A stretch of 38,418 bases of DNA from Gammaproteobacteria bacterium (lineage in GTDB: Bacteria; Pseudomonadota; Gammaproteobacteria; UBA6429; Thiohalophilaceae): the NCBI GenBank assembly GCA_022712915.1, contig JAFLJQ010000154.1, positions 1-38,418 on the forward strand, read 5' to 3'. How positions within the stretch are numbered: the stretch's first letter is position 1; every line of letters begins with the position of its first letter. This document shows positions 7,377 to 33,708 of the stretch, in pieces. The position numbers and the translations under genes are program-made. The notes below the pieces were generated by a model, which was not told the origin of the DNA, did not search any database, and saw only the letters and a list, made by a program, of their open reading frames with translations.

Positions 7377-10300
7377 ATGCAACAATCTGGTAAATTATTA
7401 ATACAACTACGTAGAGCCATGTTGTATGCGTTGGCTGTATTTGTTGTCACCGCTGCGGTAGCTTTGTCGATTACGCGATTGTTGTTGCCTGAGGTGCAAG
7501 GCTATAAGGTGCTAATTGAACAACAGCTTGGTGAAATTATCGAGCAAAATGTACATATTGATAAGATTGATGCAAGGCTTGTTGGTTTTACCCCGACTAT
7601 TATCTTCAACGGTGTGCATCTGATTGATGACAGTGGCGTAAAAGAACTTGTATCATTTAAAAAGGCTTATCTGGGCATATCCATTGTCCAGTCTATATTT
7701 CAAATGACGCTTGTGCCAAGTAGTTTTACTGTATTTGGCACCGTTATATCGGTTTTGCAAAAAGCGGATGGGTCGTATGCGATACAGGGTTTTGACCTTT
7801 CAGCACTTGGTGATACGGGGGGGCTTGATACTGTTATTAGTAAAGAGCTTGCAAACTGGTTACTGGAACAATCAAGCATCAGTATCAAGGAAAGTACCGT
7901 TGTATGGAAACAAAGTCAGAGTGAAAAATGGCATCGTTTTGATGATGTCAATGTGGTTTTGCATAACCGTAATAATCGTCACCAGCTAACAGGGGCGTTT
8001 CAAATTCCTGAGGGAATGGGTCAACACTCTAATATTGCAGTCGATGTGACGGGTGATCTATTAAAACCAGAAGAGTGGCATGGTCTTTTATACATAAAGA
8101 GCAAAGGGTTGCGTTTGTCTGAATGGGGTATAAAACCAGAATTCAGGCATATAAAACTCAAGGGAGGTGAAACAGATTTTGAACTTTGGGGTGAGTGGGC
8201 CGGGAGTGGTTTGACGCACCTGTCAGGTAAATTGGCTGTTCATGATTTACAGTTTCAGAATAGCAAAACAGGGAGTTCATCAAATATAGAACAATTGAAA
8301 GGTGAGTTTGATTGGTCAGGGAAATTGTCAGACTGGGAGTTACGGGTTGATCATCTGGAGTACGCAACAAAGTTAAGAGCCTGGAAAAAATCTGCAGTTG
8401 TTGCAAGTTGGAATGAACAAAATGGAGATTCAGAACTTAATTTCGGTTTGTCGTATGCAACAATAGAGGATATAAAAAATTTATTAACTGATGTTGGTTT
8501 ATATAAAACAGGGCAGATTGAAATGCTGGATGGTTTAAACCCACAGGGTGATTTGGCGAACCTGCACATTAATGTAAATTTGCCAGTAAAAGGTAAGCCT
8601 CGTTATACAGTGGTTGCGGGCATACAAAAACTGAGTCTGCAAAACTGGCAAAAAATGCCCGCTCTTGTTGGATTAAATGCCCATATTAATCTCAATGAAT
8701 CACATGGGCAGATTATGCTTGATGGAACCAACGTGATGATGACCAGTCCAGAATTATTGCGGCAGCCTGTGATATTTAAAGATCTTTCTGGCAAAATTGA
8801 TCTGTATAACAGCGGTAATGGTTGGCAATTGAATAGTAACGGTTTTGTTGCAAGCAATGATGATTTTAAGTTGGCATTAGACATGATGTTAATGATGCCG
8901 GATAATAAAAAATCGCCTTATCTGGAACTGGCTCTTTCATTAAAAGATGTGGATATTGCGAGCATTCACAATTATCAGCCAGTATTTATCTTGAAAGAAA
9001 AATTTGTTGAATGGATTGATTATGCCTTAGTGTCAGGTCGGTTGACTGAAGTCAATGCGATATTCAGAGGTTGGGCCAACCAGTTTCCATTCAAACAGAA
9101 ACAAGGCGTATTGAATGGTGAGTTACATGGAACCAATGTCAGGATGAAATATTTTTCTGGTTGGCCGGAAATTTCTGGAGTAGAGGGTTCAGGAGAGTTC
9201 ACACAAAATACAATAATCATTAAACCTGATACAGCTAGTTTACATAACGGTTCAATTCGTAACCTGTCTGTACGAATTGATGATTTTGATTTGCCTATAT
9301 TAAAAGTTGAAGGTCATGCCTATGGTTTGACAGAAGATGGATTTCAGTTTTTCTCTAAAACTCCGATGGGTCTACGCGCGGAGCGATTTGTTAATACAAC
9401 CCGTTTTACTGGTGATATGCACACTTTCATGAAGTTTAGTGTGGCACTGGACAAAGAATTGGCAAAAAAGTACAAAAAAAGATTTACAGGGTATGCCGAA
9501 ACCACTAATAGCGCTATGTATCTGATGCGTGAGCGTGTGGATGTGAAAGGTATTAATGGTAAAGTGCATTTTTCGAATAAGAAGTATTCTGGTGAGGGTC
9601 TTACGGCAAAACTACTTCAGGGTGATATAAAAATTCATATTGGTTCCAGAATTGTTGGAGACAAACCTGTCATGCAAATTGCCGCTGAAGGTGAGTTTGA
9701 TTCAATGTTGCTTGATGAGCGTTTTAAAAAACTTGGTTTGTTGAGGGTGAGTGGACAGTTGCCATGGAAAGGTAAAATAACATTGGGGCACTTGAAAGCG
9801 TCAGGAAAAGGGCGTGAACCGACAAAAATGATGATTGAATCAAACTTGCTGGGTGTGACGATTGATTTACCTGAACCGTTTAGAAAATCAGCAGAAACAA
9901 GTCGTCACACTGTCATGCATTCGACTTTTTTGCCTGATATAAAAACCATACTTAATCTTCAGTATGGCGATCGTATGTCGACAGAGATGAGAATGAACAA
10001 TCTGTTTTTTCCAGCACGTATTGAAATTGGAGAAATGAAGTTATCTGCGGGCAAGGCAAAATTACCTGATGTGGATGAATTTCGTTTGTCTGGCGTGGTA
10101 AATAATATGGATCAATATGGTTGGCGTGAGGTGATGTTGCAGCATTATACCAAGTACAAGAAACTTCGTACTCGCCCTATTGTTGATGTGCCCGTGGTGG
10201 TGGATCTTGCTTATATCAATATACCTTTTGATAAAACAAAGGCTAAACCGCGCAAACGGTATACAAGTCCAAAGGTTCTTCCTGCATTTAAAGGGCAGAT

Positions 10301-11108
10301 TAGACGTTTTGTGTTTGCCGGAAAAGAATTTGGCAAGCTTGAATTTGATAGTCGTCGAGATAATTTGGGTCTTGCCTTTGATAAGATTCGTTTGACATCG
10401 CCTCACATGGAATATAACGCCAAGGCAACATGGCATTATGTGGGTAATTGGCATAAAACAAAAACAACAGGCGTGCTCAAAATCTCTAATTTGGGAGACT
10501 TGATGACAAGTTTTGGTTTTGCCGGTAAAGTTGAGGATGGTGAAGGTGAAGTAAAACTTGATTTAAATTGGGATAATCCCTTTTATGTTTTCAGACCAGG
10601 TTATACCAATGGTAAGCTTGATCTTTCTTTTGAAGATGGTGTTGTCACGGCCATTAATCCAGGGGCGGGTCGTTTTCTGGGGTTGCTAAACTTATCAACT
10701 TTGCCAAGGCGACTATTATTAGATTTCAGTGATGTGGGTTCCGGTTTTGGTTTTGATTCCCTCAAGGGAAATGTCAGTCTGAAGAATGGTATGGCCTCGA
10801 CGGATAATATGTTTGTTGATAGTACGGTGGCCGACGTCCTTGCCGTAGGCCGCGTGGATGTTCGGAATAAAAAATTTGACCAGATTGTGACGGTGACACC
10901 CCAGGTGGCGGGCACTTTACCTATCGTTAGTGGTCTTTTGATGGGTGTGGGCGTGATACCAATAGTCTGGCTTTTTGAAAGGATGTTTGGTTCGGATATG
11001 GATAAATCCCTTTCACGGCAATATCATATTTCGGGGCCATGGGCTGAACCTAAGGTAGAAAGGATAGATAAGGAAGAAGAGACCGAGAATTTTGATGATG
11101 ACTTTTGA
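7377..11108 (+). CDS. yhdP: YhdP, AsmA-like envelope-spanning lipid transport protein
   Basis: The 1243-residue protein has one N-terminal membrane segment (about residues 14-38). It is followed by a long periplasmic region of repeating beta-rich segments and a C-terminal AsmA/DUF3971-type domain (VTVTPQVAGTLPIVSGLLMG near 1180). YhdP-family proteins form a long hydrophobic groove between the inner and outer membranes and, with TamB and YdbH, support phospholipid transport. The length is close to E. coli YhdP (1266). The coding sequence looks more A/T-rich than its neighbours. The order rng-yhdP-nit-tldD is a conserved gammaproteobacterial neighbourhood. The start has no clear ribosome-binding site but places the membrane anchor correctly. 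Confidence 0.93.
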   Translation: MQQSGKLLIQLRRAMLYALAVFVVTAAVALSITRLLLPEVQGYKVLIEQQLGEIIEQNVHIDKIDARLVGFTPTIIFNGVHLIDDSGVKELVSFKKAYLGISIVQSIFQMTLVPSSFTVFGTVISVLQKADGSYAIQGFDLSALGDTGGLDTVISKELANWLLEQSSISIKESTVVWKQSQSEKWHRFDDVNVVLHNRNNRHQLTGAFQIPEGMGQHSNIAVDVTGDLLKPEEWHGLLYIKSKGLRLSEWGIKPEFRHIKLKGGETDFELWGEWAGSGLTHLSGKLAVHDLQFQNSKTGSSSNIEQLKGEFDWSGKLSDWELRVDHLEYATKLRAWKKSAVVASWNEQNGDSELNFGLSYATIEDIKNLLTDVGLYKTGQIEMLDGLNPQGDLANLHINVNLPVKGKPRYTVVAGIQKLSLQNWQKMPALVGLNAHINLNESHGQIMLDGTNVMMTSPELLRQPVIFKDLSGKIDLYNSGNGWQLNSNGFVASNDDFKLALDMMLMMPDNKKSPYLELALSLKDVDIASIHNYQPVFILKEKFVEWIDYALVSGRLTEVNAIFRGWANQFPFKQKQGVLNGELHGTNVRMKYFSGWPEISGVEGSGEFTQNTIIIKPDTASLHNGSIRNLSVRIDDFDLPILKVEGHAYGLTEDGFQFFSKTPMGLRAERFVNTTRFTGDMHTFMKFSVALDKELAKKYKKRFTGYAETTNSAMYLMRERVDVKGINGKVHFSNKKYSGEGLTAKLLQGDIKIHIGSRIVGDKPVMQIAAEGEFDSMLLDERFKKLGLLRVSGQLPWKGKITLGHLKASGKGREPTKMMIESNLLGVTIDLPEPFRKSAETSRHTVMHSTFLPDIKTILNLQYGDRMSTEMRMNNLFFPARIEIGEMKLSAGKAKLPDVDEFRLSGVVNNMDQYGWREVMLQHYTKYKKLRTRPIVDVPVVVDLAYINIPFDKTKAKPRKRYTSPKVLPAFKGQIRRFVFAGKEFGKLEFDSRRDNLGLAFDKIRLTSPHMEYNAKATWHYVGNWHKTKTTGVLKISNLGDLMTSFGFAGKVEDGEGEVKLDLNWDNPFYVFRPGYTNGKLDLSFEDGVVTAINPGAGRFLGLLNLSTLPRRLLLDFSDVGSGFGFDSLKGNVSLKNGMASTDNMFVDSTVADVLAVGRVDVRNKKFDQIVTVTPQVAGTLPIVSGLLMGVGVIPIVWLFERMFGSDMDKSLSRQYHISGPWAEPKVERIDKEEETENFDDDF

Positions 11109-29038: not shown

Positions 29039-29833
29039 TTATTTTAACAGTTCTTGCTCGAGAGCATCTTCCAGATCTAGGTCTTCCTGGCTCGAAGGTT
29101 CAAAGTTGGGTTTTTCTCGGGGTGGATTGCCATCATAGACTAGATATTTCCTGCGTTGCAGGTAGGCATCGCGCACAAAGGCATACTTATCTATTGTGGC
29201 CTTGGAGACCACTCTATTGATACTGAGTAAACCTTTACGGGTATCAATGGCCTTAAGGCCGATCAAGCCGTATTGGGTTTTTTCGTCGTCCAGATGAAGA
29301 TTAATTGGATCAATATATTCCCAGTCAGCTAGATTACCAAAGGTATCACGGACGCTGCTGGGGCCAAGAAAGGGTAAGACAAAATAAGGTCCAGAAGGGA
29401 CGCCCCATGTCCCCATCGTTTGGCCAAAATCTTCATTCAGCTTTGGCAGTCCCATATGAGAGGCCACATCAATGAGCCCGAAGAAACCAAAAAAGGTATT
29501 GAATACAAAGCGCATAAAGGTATGTAAAAAGTCTTGAACCTTGAATTGCAACAGGCTATTGCTCATGACCAGAATATCATCGATATGGCTGAAAAAATTT
29601 GTGACACCGGTCTGGACAACGTCGGGGGTGATGGTTTCATACGCACCGACAACGGGATCCAGTACGTAGTCATAAAAACCTTCGTTAAAGGAAAACATCG
29701 CCCGGTTATAGGATTCTATTGGGTCGGCTTCATTGGCGGGGCCATGTACCGTTGCACAACCACTGCCCAAGCTCACTAGACCCATAATGAACATTATCAG
29801 AATTATTTTTTGGTTAAGGGCCCGGAATTTCAT
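29039..29833 (-). CDS. mlaA: Outer-membrane lipoprotein MlaA (VacJ)
   Basis: The 264-residue lipoprotein has a signal sequence with lipobox SLGSGC (Cys26). It is followed by DPIESYNRAMFSFNEGFYDYVLDPV and GLPKLNEDFGQTMGTWGVPSGPYFVLPFLGPSSVRDT, hallmarks of MlaA. It sits in the outer membrane with a porin and removes phospholipids from the outer leaflet for return transport by MlaC and MlaFEDB. In E. coli it is far from the mla operon; here it lies about 1 kb from mlaF, in the opposite direction. Confidence 0.95.
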   Translation of the reverse strand: MKFRALNQKIILIMFIMGLVSLGSGCATVHGPANEADPIESYNRAMFSFNEGFYDYVLDPVVGAYETITPDVVQTGVTNFFSHIDDILVMSNSLLQFKVQDFLHTFMRFVFNTFFGFFGLIDVASHMGLPKLNEDFGQTMGTWGVPSGPYFVLPFLGPSSVRDTFGNLADWEYIDPINLHLDDEKTQYGLIGLKAIDTRKGLLSINRVVSKATIDKYAFVRDAYLQRRKYLVYDGNPPREKPNFEPSSQEDLDLEDALEQELLK

Positions 29834-29905: not shown

Positions 29906-30091
29906 TTATTTGGCCTCGGTTTTGGTTGTTCCACAGCGGCTGCATTCATAAGCCGAGACCAGTTTACCGGTTTTAACATCAAATGGTTTTTGCTTGCTGA
30001 CAACCCACTTGTGAAAACCATGGCGGCAGAGCGTTTTGCCTTTGTGTTTGTCTTTTAGTTTTGGTTTTTTGAATTGTAAAATGTCGGCCAT
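29906..30091 (-). CDS. Small zinc-ribbon-like protein, function unknown
   Basis: The 61-residue basic protein holds possible zinc ligands in two groups: Cys22, His24 and His27 in LCRHGFHKW, and Cys50 and Cys53 in YECSRCGTTK. The layout resembles the tiny zinc-binding proteins grouped as DUF1660 and related ribbons, but the match is only by pattern. The N-terminus (ILQFKKPKLKDKHKGK) is strongly basic, suggesting nucleic-acid or ribosome contact. It is divergent from the DUF72-like gene with 57 bases between the starts. Confidence 0.65.
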   Translation of the reverse strand: MADILQFKKPKLKDKHKGKTLCRHGFHKWVVSKQKPFDVKTGKLVSAYECSRCGTTKTEAK

Positions 30092-30148: not shown

Positions 30149-30847
30149 ATGATTACTCACTCCAGCCGGATTTTAATCGGTGCCAATGGCTGGTTGCACC
30201 CTGCATGGCAAACTTGGTTTTATCCTGATGACCTGCCGGATGACTGGTTGCTTGCTTATTACAGTAATGACTTCCCTGTGGTGCTGATGCCAGCAGCATA
30301 CTGGCAAACCAGCATGAATGATATTCAGGATTGTCTGGAAGACAGTAGTGATCATTTTCGTATAGTCTGTGAAGTCCCGCCAGGCTTATTGCAAAAACCA
30401 AATGATGAAGTGGTTAATGCCATTAATGATTTTATTAATGGTCTATCTATTTTGGGAGAGCATTGCATAGGCCTTCTATTGCCGGTGATGGGTTGTCAGA
30501 CAGGTATAAATGAGATAATCAGTCAATTGGATCGTCGCTTACCCCTGTGCATTGAGCTTGTAGGGGACATATCCATCAGTTCAGGCAAAACAATACAAAA
30601 AATGTGTGAGCAACAAGGGGTGGGCTTGTGCTGGCATGGAGAGGGATCCACCGCAGGATTAGGTTATGGCCCGTTGGCTATCGCCAGGATAGATAGTCAG
30701 GGCATGGCAATGCGGCAGCTCAGAGATATAGTGGAAATGATGTTGTCGGCAACGATACTGGGGCAAACAAGTGTATTGATTATTGATGGCCATCCACCTG
30801 ATGTGGATGCCATTCGTCATGCGGGCGTGATCTTGGATCTTTTTTAG
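30149..30847 (+). CDS. Divergent DUF72-like protein
   Basis: The 232-residue protein begins RILIGANGWLHPAWQTWFYPDDLPDDWLLAYYSNDFPVV. This matches the start of DUF72/YecE proteins (usually G(T/C)(S/N)GW.Y..W...FYP..L....L.YYA..F..V). The rest keeps the expected barrel-like spacing (FRIVCEVPPGLL, LPLCIELVG, GLCWHGEG), although many DUF72 signature residues are replaced. The biochemical role of DUF72 is not established. It lies 46 bases before mlaF and may share its transcript. Confidence 0.7.
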   Translation: MITHSSRILIGANGWLHPAWQTWFYPDDLPDDWLLAYYSNDFPVVLMPAAYWQTSMNDIQDCLEDSSDHFRIVCEVPPGLLQKPNDEVVNAINDFINGLSILGEHCIGLLLPVMGCQTGINEIISQLDRRLPLCIELVGDISISSGKTIQKMCEQQGVGLCWHGEGSTAGLGYGPLAIARIDSQGMAMRQLRDIVEMMLSATILGQTSVLIIDGHPPDVDAIRHAGVILDLF

Positions 30848-30893: not shown

Positions 30894-31724
30894 ATGGCTG
30901 ATAACAATATTCTAGTAAAGACACGCGATCTCAGTTTTAAACGTGGTGATCGAGTGATTTTCGATGGCGTCGATATTGATATCCGTCGCGGCAGTGTCAC
31001 TGCCATCATGGGCCCCAGCGGTACCGGTAAAACCACTCTGTTACGCTTGATTGGTGGACAACTGAAGCCGGATAAGGGCTCGGTCATTGTGGATGGTGAA
31101 AATGTCCATGAATTAAGACGCAGCCAACTTTATCAGCTTCGCAAGCGCATGGGCATGTTGTTCCAGAACGGTGCCTTGTTAACCGATCTGAATGTCTACG
31201 ATAATGTTGCCTTTCCTCTGCGCGAACACACTAATCTTTCAGAAAATCTGATTCACAAACTGGTGCTCATGAAACTGGAGGCCGTAGGATTACGTGGTGC
31301 CCGGAATCTGATGCCGAGTGAATTATCGGGTGGTATGGCTCGTCGGGTGGCCCTGGCTCGCGCTATTGCCCTCGATCCTATGATGATTATGTACGATGAA
31401 CCCTTTACGGGTCAGGATCCTATTTCCATGGGCGTGCTGGTACGCTTAATCCGCTTGTTGAACGATGCCCTCGGGTTGACCAGCATTATTGTTTCCCATG
31501 ATATTCAAGACACTTTGTCCATTGCGGATGAAATTTATTTATTAGCCGGTGGCAAGGTAGTGGCCAAGGGTTCCGGTGATGAATTGAAGCAGTCCAGTTC
31601 TGAGTGGGCGCAGCAATTTCTCAAGGGCCAGCCCGATGGGCCGGTGCCTTTTCATTTTCCTGCTGAGGATTATGCCGATGACTTGCTGGACGGCAAACCG
31701 GGCCGAGCCCAGACGAGAATGTAG
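30894..31724 (+). CDS. mlaF: Phospholipid ABC transporter ATPase MlaF
   Basis: The 276-residue ATPase has Walker [10 protein letters not shown] at 40-48, the signature LSGGMARR and Walker [14 protein letters not shown]. With MlaE, MlaD and MlaB it forms the inner-membrane complex that moves phospholipids between the membranes and keeps outer-membrane asymmetry. The C-terminal tail ([18 protein letters not shown]) corresponds to the extension that wraps the partner MlaF and contacts MlaB in E. coli. mlaE starts two bases after its stop. Confidence 0.96.
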
Positions 31725-31726
31725 CT

Positions 31727-32509
31727 ATGCTGGATCCAATTCAAAATTTAGGTAAAAGCGGACTGCGTTTTTTTGAACGCCTGGGCCGGGCTTGTATCCT
31801 GTTTGCCCGTATCTTGGGTGGTTTGCATACATTAATACCCCGTCTCGGCCTAGTGATTTACCAGACCTACTCGGTGGGTGTGCTGTCTCTTCTTATTATT
31901 GTTGTATCCGGTTTGTTTGTCGGTATGGTTCTGGCTTTGCAAGGTTACAATACCCTGGTGGATTTTGGTGCTGAGGAGTCTCTGGGCATTCTCGTTGCCC
32001 TGTCTCTGGTACGGGAACTCGGTCCTGTTGTATCCGCTTTGTTGTTTGCCGGGCGGGCGGGCTCGGCCCTGACAGCCGAAATTGGTTTGATGAAGGCCAC
32101 TGAGCAATTGTCGGCCATGGAAATGATGGCGATTGACCCGGTTCATCGTGTTATGGCTCCGCGCTTTGTGGCGGGCTTTTTTGCCATGCCTTTACTGGCG
32201 GCGATTTTCAGTGCGGTGGGTGTTCTCGGTGGTTATTTTGTGGCGGTTGGGGTGGTTGGGGTGGATGAAGGTGCCTTTTGGTCACAAATGCAGGATGCAG
32301 TTGATTTGCGAGATGATATCTATAATGGTGTTATCAAGAGCGTGGTATTTGGTGTGGTCGTAACCTGGATTGCCATCTTTGAGGGGAGTGATGCCATTCC
32401 CACATCAGAAGGTGTGAGCCGTGCGACCACCCGTACGGTTGTTCATTCCGCCCTGGCAATATTGGGGTTGGATTTTGTCTTAACAGCATTAATGTTCGGG
32501 GAGATCTGA
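31727..32509 (+). CDS. mlaE: Phospholipid ABC transporter permease MlaE
   Basis: The 260-residue permease has the length of E. coli MlaE. An N-terminal amphipathic segment is followed by five membrane helices. The conserved coupling region is [38 protein letters not shown] and the C-terminus has [12 protein letters not shown]. Two copies form the lipid pocket beneath the MlaD ring. mlaD begins three bases after the stop. Confidence 0.96.
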
Positions 32510-32512
32510 ACA

Positions 32513-32992
32513 ATGAATACAAGAATTGTGGAAATATGGGTGGGTATCTTTATTGCGGCGGGTGCAGCGGCCTTGTTTATGTTGGCGATGAAAGTCAGTA
32601 ACCTTGCTACCTATACTAATGATGAAGGTTATACCATTACAGCTAAATTTGAAGATGCCAGTGGCCTGAAGGAGCGCTCGCCGGTGGCTATGGCCGGGGT
32701 GCGCCTGGGTCGGGTAACGGATATTCGCTTTGATAACCTGACCCTGGAGGCCATTGTGACCATGCGTATCGAAAGCAAGTATAATACCTTGCCCAAAGAT
32801 ACCTCGGCCAGTATTTATACGGCCGGTCTACTGGGTGAGAAATATGTCGGTCTGGAACCCGGCGGGGATGAGGCCAGTCTCAAACAGGGTGACAGGATCA
32901 AGTTGACCCAAGGGTCTATGGTGTTGGAAAAACTGATCGGTCAGTTTGTTTCCCAGTTTCTCAGTGACGACAGTTCCGATAAAGCCAAATAA
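32513..32992 (+). CDS. mlaD: MCE-domain substrate-binding protein MlaD
   Basis: The 159-residue protein has one N-terminal membrane helix (about 8-27) and a single MCE domain (about 37-115: YTITAKFEDASGLKERSPVAMAGVRLGRV). A short hydrophobic C-terminal helix (VLEKLIGQFVSQFLS) lines the hexamer pore. Six copies form a ring that passes lipid between MlaE and MlaC. It is a little shorter than E. coli MlaD (183). In most operons mlaC comes next; here the next gene is mlaB after about 15 bases. Confidence 0.95.
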   Translation: MNTRIVEIWVGIFIAAGAAALFMLAMKVSNLATYTNDEGYTITAKFEDASGLKERSPVAMAGVRLGRVTDIRFDNLTLEAIVTMRIESKYNTLPKDTSASIYTAGLLGEKYVGLEPGGDEASLKQGDRIKLTQGSMVLEKLIGQFVSQFLSDDSSDKAK

Positions 32993-33007
32993 GCGAAGCA
33001 TCACTTG

Positions 33008-33310
33008 ATGACAACAAGCATAAAAAAAACCGGCAATGGGCAGCTTGCCATTGAAGGTGAGTTGAGCAAGGTGACGGTGCCCACCATCTGGCGTGAGACT
33101 AAGGGATTAGTGCAGGCGGCCACGCAAAATCTGGTTATTGACCTGAAAGAGGTGACCCGTACCGACAGTGCTGGCCTGGCGATGTTGCTGGAGTTGATGA
33201 CATTGGCCCGAAAAAAAGAGCTACAAATTCATTTTCGTAATCTCCCTGCGCAGTTATGGACCATCGCCAAGATCAGTGATTTAGAGGGTATTATTCCTCT
33301 CGCTGACTGA
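33008..33310 (+). CDS. mlaB: STAS-domain protein MlaB
   Basis: The 100-residue STAS protein shows LVIDLKEVTRTDSAGLAMLLELM, with Thr52 at the position needed for function in E. coli MlaB. It binds MlaF and stabilises the transporter. The TTG at 33005 directly precedes the ATG at 33008; the ATG is the likelier start. No strong ribosome-binding site is present, so translation may depend on reading through from mlaD. Confidence 0.92.
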   Translation: MTTSIKKTGNGQLAIEGELSKVTVPTIWRETKGLVQAATQNLVIDLKEVTRTDSAGLAMLLELMTLARKKELQIHFRNLPAQLWTIAKISDLEGIIPLAD

Positions 33311-33453: not shown

Positions 33454-33708
33454 ATGGATCCAGAAGAGGTAAAGAAACTCATATTGCTTGGTCTGCCTGA
33501 TTGTGAGGTCACGATAAAAGGTGATGGTAGCCATTTTGATGCTGTTGTTATCGGTGAGATATTCGATGGTAAAAGTTTAGTGGCCAAACAGAAACTGGTT
33601 TATGCCACCGTGAATGAAGCCATCACGGGTGGACAACTGCATGCCTTGTCTATTAAAACCTATACTCCTGCTGAATGGGAGAAGGCCAAGAAGTTACAAA
33701 TTTCCTGA
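33454..33708 (+). CDS. ibaG: BolA-family protein IbaG (YrbA)
   Basis: The 84-residue protein has the BolA-like fold: VTIKGDGSHFDAVVIGEIFDGKSLVAKQKLVY and the closing LHALSIKTYTPAEWEKAKK. His27 and His63 are likely metal ligands; BolA-family members bind [2Fe-2S] clusters together with monothiol glutaredoxin (Grx4). Position between mla genes and murA, and the length, match E. coli IbaG. AAGAGG eight bases before the ATG is a good ribosome-binding site. murA follows after 68 bases. Confidence 0.94.
   Translation: MDPEEVKKLILLGLPDCEVTIKGDGSHFDAVVIGEIFDGKSLVAKQKLVYATVNEAITGGQLHALSIKTYTPAEWEKAKKLQIS

Follow-up and report, generated by a model that had tools for sequence, protein, structure and literature searches.

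The window, the whole stretch of 38,418 nucleotides analysed here, is a contig from a gammaproteobacterial genome in which mlaF, mlaE, mlaD and mlaB are encoded together and are followed by a BolA-like gene and murA, with a divergent mlaA about 1 kb upstream of mlaF (Table 1). The operon lacks mlaC alone, and its other genes are in the E. coli order. The stop codon of mlaD (TAA) occupies positions 32990-32992, and the mlaB frame opens with a TTG at 33005, in frame with an ATG at 33008, leaving a gap of 12 or 15 bases according to the start codon chosen. A first-pass annotation of this DNA had put the gap at about 15 bases, which is correct for the ATG start, and had noted that it is too short to encode a carrier some 200 residues long and that mlaA lies about 1 kb away; rereading the DNA bears out both points.

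Table 1. Genes and features of the mla region in the window
Feature	Position	Strand	Basis
mlaA (outer-membrane lipoprotein)	29039..29833	-	divergent, ~1 kb upstream of mlaF; PF04333 249.5 bits
mlaF (ABC ATPase)	30894..31724	+	NCBIfam NF008809 MlaF 414.9 bits, just below cut-off 441; best among 187 families
mlaE (permease)	31727..32509	+	PF02405 250.7 bits; NF033619 411.7 bits, above cut-off 315
mlaD, short form of 159 aa, one MCE domain	32513..32992	+	PF02470 80.4 bits; TIGR04430 184.8 bits, above cut-off 135
mlaD-mlaB junction, site of mlaC in relatives, without mlaC here	32993..33007	+	DNA read
mlaB (STAS)	33005 (TTG) or 33008 (ATG) to 33310	+	PF13466 48.8 bits; NF033618 mlaB 51 bits, below cut-off 90
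BolA-like gene (ibaG position in E. coli)	33454..33708	+	PF01722 53.1 bits; order as in E. coli mlaB-ibaG-murA
murA	from 33777		downstream of BolA-like gene

MlaE and MlaD pass the NCBIfam cut-offs, whereas MlaF and MlaB are the best or first named NCBIfam matches yet fall below their own cut-offs, and the mlaA product scores 140.1 bits against an NCBIfam MlaA cut-off of 375. The region resembles the E. coli mlaFEDCB-ibaG-murA cluster (NC_000913) in gene order, in the flanking ibaG/bolA-like gene and murA and in the protein families. It differs from that cluster in having no mlaC between mlaD and mlaB, the carrier gene standing alone beside hemB, and in the closeness of mlaA, which in E. coli occupies a separate locus (PMC10665443). 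Between mlaA and mlaF lie a 61-residue, cysteine-containing, zinc-ribbon-like open reading frame with no family match (29906-30091, reverse strand) and a 232-residue frame with a sub-threshold match to DUF72 (30149-30847, forward strand). The window also encodes lptC/lptA-type genes and YhdP (7377-11108, forward strand; 1243 residues, PF13116 707 bits), an AsmA-like protein implicated in anterograde lipid traffic, opposite to that of Mla (PMC10665443).

We searched the genome of origin (274 contigs, 97.8% complete) in six frames for MlaC and inspected its neighbours, as had been proposed in the first-pass annotation. A single match to PF05494 was obtained, an intact gene at G000:C165:26983-27498 (E 2.0e-44), on a contig other than that of the window. 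This gene is divergent from hemB, which functions in haem synthesis, and convergent with a TetR gene; genes for MAPEG and thioesterase proteins lie further out. Because the neighbours on both sides run in the opposite direction, it looks like a single-gene unit. A terminator-like hairpin lies 3' of its stop codon; it is only suggestive, since promoter-like and terminator-like sites at this gene are no commoner than in shuffled sequences (2 versus 2.8 and 1 versus 1.4, respectively). The translation begins, by eye, with a hydrophobic N-terminus ending in ASA. The protein scores 151.9 bits against the PF05494 cut-off of 26 and 75.8 bits against the 195 bits of the NCBIfam MlaC equivalog NF011697, and phmmer matches it to 11 distinct PDB sequences (E up to 0.01), MlaC and Ttg2D included. 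In its family and its PDB sequence matches it is thus like the phospholipid carrier MlaC/Ttg2D (PF05494; 5uwa, 6gki, 6hsy, 8oj4 and others), and it differs from E. coli MlaC (22% identity) and from the operonic MlaC of the near genus g9 (G010; 38%) in belonging to a distinct hemB-linked lineage, the hemB copy of G010 being 60% identical. HpnM is a hopanoid-associated relative of MlaC, and the surviving protein could be a carrier of that type, as its score with the HpnM model (64.2 bits) is near that with the MlaC model. The HpnM score is nevertheless far under the cut-off of 160.1 bits (TIGR03481), and the genome has no match to squalene-hopene cyclase, for which only 2 of the 37 genomes of the family gave matches, one of them weak; we rejected the HpnM identity on these two grounds and consider it highly improbable.

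The mla and MlaC loci were then read in those 37 members of family f1, of which the window genome is one. In the reference collection searched, the closest relatives by MlaD are gammaproteobacterial MAGs (90-91% identity), with Thiohalophilus at 72% and Thiohalomonas at 65%. The junction between mlaD and mlaB was readable in 34 of the 37 genomes; mlaC is present there in 16, counting G019, in which the junction spans two contig ends, and absent in 18, namely the window genome, the other two of its genus (G001 and G002) and 15 further members of the family. The absence of mlaC first remarked in the window is therefore confirmed on DNA and is shared across the family. In 15 of these 18 genomes mlaA adjoins the operon, and in the remaining three the contig stops too early for mlaA to be read. 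The MlaC clade defined by the hemB-linked copies was found in 34 of the 37 genomes, one of them (G032) assigned by the tree alone because its copy lies at a contig end. This count leaves aside seven divergent MlaC-like rows from six family genomes (30-74 bits) and an extra copy or fragment in each of G012, G019, G023 and G034 (the second gene of L128, L180, the second gene of L151, and L173). No copy of this clade was found in G011, G013 and G025, which are 70, 84 and 77% complete, respectively; in G025, whose mlaFEDB lacks mlaC, the sole MlaC-like protein found is very divergent. The hemB-clade copy thus accompanies the operonic gene in 14 of the 16 genomes that have it, and is present in 17 of the 18 that do not and in all three with an unreadable junction. 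Both copies occur together in G010 and in Thiohalophilus thiocyanatoxydans, for example.

The first-pass annotation had offered two explanations, that mlaC moved elsewhere or that another carrier links MlaA to MlaFEDB, and had held that an intact mlaC elsewhere would make this a simple relocation. An intact gene does exist elsewhere, as relocation of the operonic gene to a place beside hemB would predict, but its ancestry points the other way. In a tree of 104 MlaC rows (of 124), the MlaC of the window genus clusters with the hemB copies of G004 and G010, apart from the operonic copy of G010. A tree of 59 rows (of 124) places the hemB-linked rows on one side of a branch with support of 97/88, and the operonic rows are likewise set apart (100/98). 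When the three copies of the window genus (g1) were forced together with the 15 operonic copies of the family, the log likelihood was 141 units lower and the grouping was rejected (AU test, p = 1.8e-7). Given also that 14 genomes of the family carry both the hemB-linked gene and an operonic mlaC, relocation is refuted under the model used, and we give it hardly any weight. The suggestion of another carrier came nearer the truth, except that this carrier is itself an MlaC paralog. Taken together, the separation of the two MlaC types in the tree, their coexistence and the rejection of the forced grouping indicate that the operonic copy was lost while the older paralog stayed. A third tree of 71 rows (of 147) contains a clade of 21 rows (96/83) that unites the hemB-linked MlaC of families f1, f20, f35, f88 and f110 and of MAG bin408 with stand-alone copies from Thiohalomonas and from two MAGs. 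The MlaC of Methylomonas, a Methylococcaceae MAG, G051 and G166 makes up a second, small hemB-linked group (96/89). Deep branches of this wider tree are often poorly resolved, so the hemB-linked copies may form one lineage or more than one. Rows dropped from the three trees were duplicates, short fragments and very divergent sequences, and the 59- and 71-row trees were additionally thinned by hand.

On a species tree of six proteins, with the state of the operon assigned by genus and the junction of G026 not readable, five losses of the operonic mlaC are required within the family if regain is disallowed: in g1, in g16, in g5+g6+g7+g17, in g14 and in g13. When regain is allowed, plain parsimony counts 5 changes if the outgroup is included and 4 for a set of 32 rows; the fact that the operonic copies form one group speaks against regain. 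The ancestor of the family appears to have had two MlaC proteins, one encoded in mlaFEDCB and one encoded by a stand-alone gene divergent from hemB.

We also examined a sample of 184 genomes of the class, and in 151 of them an MlaD scores over the family cut-off. In at least 13 of the 151, the window genome included, mlaFED is followed directly by mlaB without mlaC, as seen on DNA; 13 is a lower bound obtained by searching 36 and 39 genomes again individually, judging adjacency by eye and checking candidate junctions on DNA, and it leaves out G074, G082 and G116, in which mlaC and mlaB stand together at a distance from mlaD, G203, in which no mlaB was seen next to mlaD, and G124, whose pieces are spread over two contigs. 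An operon without mlaC is therefore uncommon in the class but not rare. These genomes also bear on whether an operonic mlaC was missed through faulty assembly or binning, a concern that the many contigs of the window genome might raise. The junction itself is contiguous and recurs in the 18 family genomes, and five single-contig genomes of other families (G055, G117, G155, G162 and G166) likewise read mlaFED and then mlaB; we regard an artefact as very improbable. Fourteen genomes of the sample have no MlaC at all, and none of them has an above-cut-off MlaD, so that all 151 genomes, the 13 included, have an MlaC somewhere. In 6 of the 13 it is divergent from hemB within 5 kb; among these six, the MlaC of G125 is a long branch that was left unplaced and that of G166 falls in the second small group with Methylomonas and G051. 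In Methylomonas sp. SURF-1 the arrangement is the same: its mlaFEDB lacks mlaC, one mlaC adjoins hemB, and another, divergent one lies next to an mlaA. In G089 and G107, two of the 13, the sole MlaC is encoded alongside a second mla cluster or a separate mlaA.

The hemB-linked MlaC was compared with E. coli MlaC at 14 positions, against mutational work on residues needed for MlaD binding or function (PMC10245069). All 34 hemB-clade copies keep an aromatic residue at position 82 (Trp for Tyr) and Asp-165, two positions that matter in the E. coli protein according to that study. The MlaC of the window genome keeps the aromatic residue at 82, Arg-134, Asp-165 and Thr-176 and differs at Leu-76 (Trp), Tyr-72 (Ala), Ile-130 (Glu), Arg-147 (Pro), Arg-153 (His), Asn-179 (Thr) and Arg-186 (Val); the operonic copies of the family likewise vary at most of the differing positions. 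The comparison gives mixed support to a role of the hemB-linked protein as the shuttle. Raw Fisher tests between hemB-clade copies with and without an operonic partner gave striking columns at E. coli positions 75, 123, 134 and 140 and at an insertion, the class with a partner holding 14 copies in these tests and 16 in the residue table, where G004 and G005 with their unreadable junctions are included. These columns follow clades, because g9, which has the operonic copy, shows the altered residues and g13, which does not, keeps most of the old ones. Measured against 400 random sets of clades matched for the number of changes, the signature of a takeover is weak: four columns reach p < 1e-4 (4.5% of random sets are as high) and six reach p < 1e-3 (33.5%). 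We claim no residue signature of takeover, as no shift is shown once relatedness is allowed for.

We think it likely that the window contains an ordinary gammaproteobacterial Mla operon that has cleanly lost its mlaC, and that the retained hemB-linked paralog serves as the shuttle. The operonic gene would have disappeared in the window genus and also, as separate events, in about four further lineages of the family, while the hemB-linked copy stayed. Made from its own transcript, apart from the operon, the carrier would be secreted to the periplasm, take phospholipid from MlaA or hand it over, and exchange phospholipid with the MlaD ring of MlaFEDB, as E. coli MlaC does. The different possibility that the hemB-linked MlaC serves another pathway, with MlaA and MlaFEDB working carrier-free or with an unrelated carrier, takes some strength from the retention of this copy even beside an operonic one, because of which it may have a function of its own. 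Some MlaEFD systems also lack both MlaA and MlaC (PMC10665443), and the sole MlaC of G089 and G107 need not serve the main operon. The genome of the window, in contrast, has a single MlaD-type match, the mlaD of the window itself (E up to 0.001), so the MlaC is without another such partner, and no further MlaD-type system was found in that genome. It also has a single MlaA, the usual partner of MlaC, encoded in the window, and in the class sample an MlaC accompanies the above-cut-off MlaD in every one of the 151 genomes. With its 159 residues, the MlaD is unlike the elongated, bridge-forming MlaD described in PMC10665443, and a bridging MlaD is ruled out here. On this evidence we judge service in another pathway unlikely, and the most likely role of the hemB-linked MlaC would be to carry lipid between MlaA and MlaFEDB. 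A broader and more tentative possibility is that many gammaproteobacteria have two MlaC per MlaFEDB, and that the older, hemB-linked one, with a duty of its own (another lipid, direction or condition), may have repeatedly taken over the entire shuttle, the operonic textbook one being dispensable in these lineages.

The MlaC-less systems described elsewhere differ from that of the window. The Veillonella MlaEFD operon also has no mlaC, but there MlaA and MlaC are both absent and MlaD is elongated (PMC10665443), whereas the MlaD of the window is short and its genome retains MlaA and an MlaC paralog. Brucella has an Mpc system and, according to PMC12436622, no detectable MlaC homologue. In a literature search whose bounds left most subscription papers and all of bioRxiv outside, we found no paper with both words mlaC and hemB, and no title or abstract opening among the matches listed reports a hemB-linked MlaC. 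What is new is therefore a second carrier lineage, for which we found no report, and its apparent repeated replacement of the textbook carrier; the proteins themselves are ordinary. The direction of Mla lipid movement and the specific cargo of MlaC are still disputed (PMC10665443, PMC10212509). Genomes with one MlaFEDB and two MlaC, set beside near relatives with the hemB-linked copy only, amount to natural replacement experiments that can reveal which surfaces of MlaC are really needed by MlaA and MlaD. Searches for mlaC confined to the operon overlook the carrier, which lies elsewhere in at least 13 of the 151 sampled genomes with an above-cut-off MlaD.

Several other MlaC-like genes were noted. 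A very divergent MlaC-like family (PF05494 E ~1e-19 to 2e-26) occurs in six genomes of the family (L105, L114, L117, L127, L140 and L154), and at three of these loci the frame of an MlaF-like ABC ATPase lies nearby; the MlaC-like protein of G025 is of this kind. At L128 (G012:C10) a second MlaC gene sits directly beside the hemB-linked one as a tandem pair. An mlaC is paired with mlaA away from mlaFEDB at L200 (Methylomonas), L201 (MAG SH-MAG129) and L244 (G107), and L242 (G089:C3) is a second, divergent mla cluster with the gene order B-F-E-D-A-C; the main mlaFEDB operon of that genome is without mlaC.
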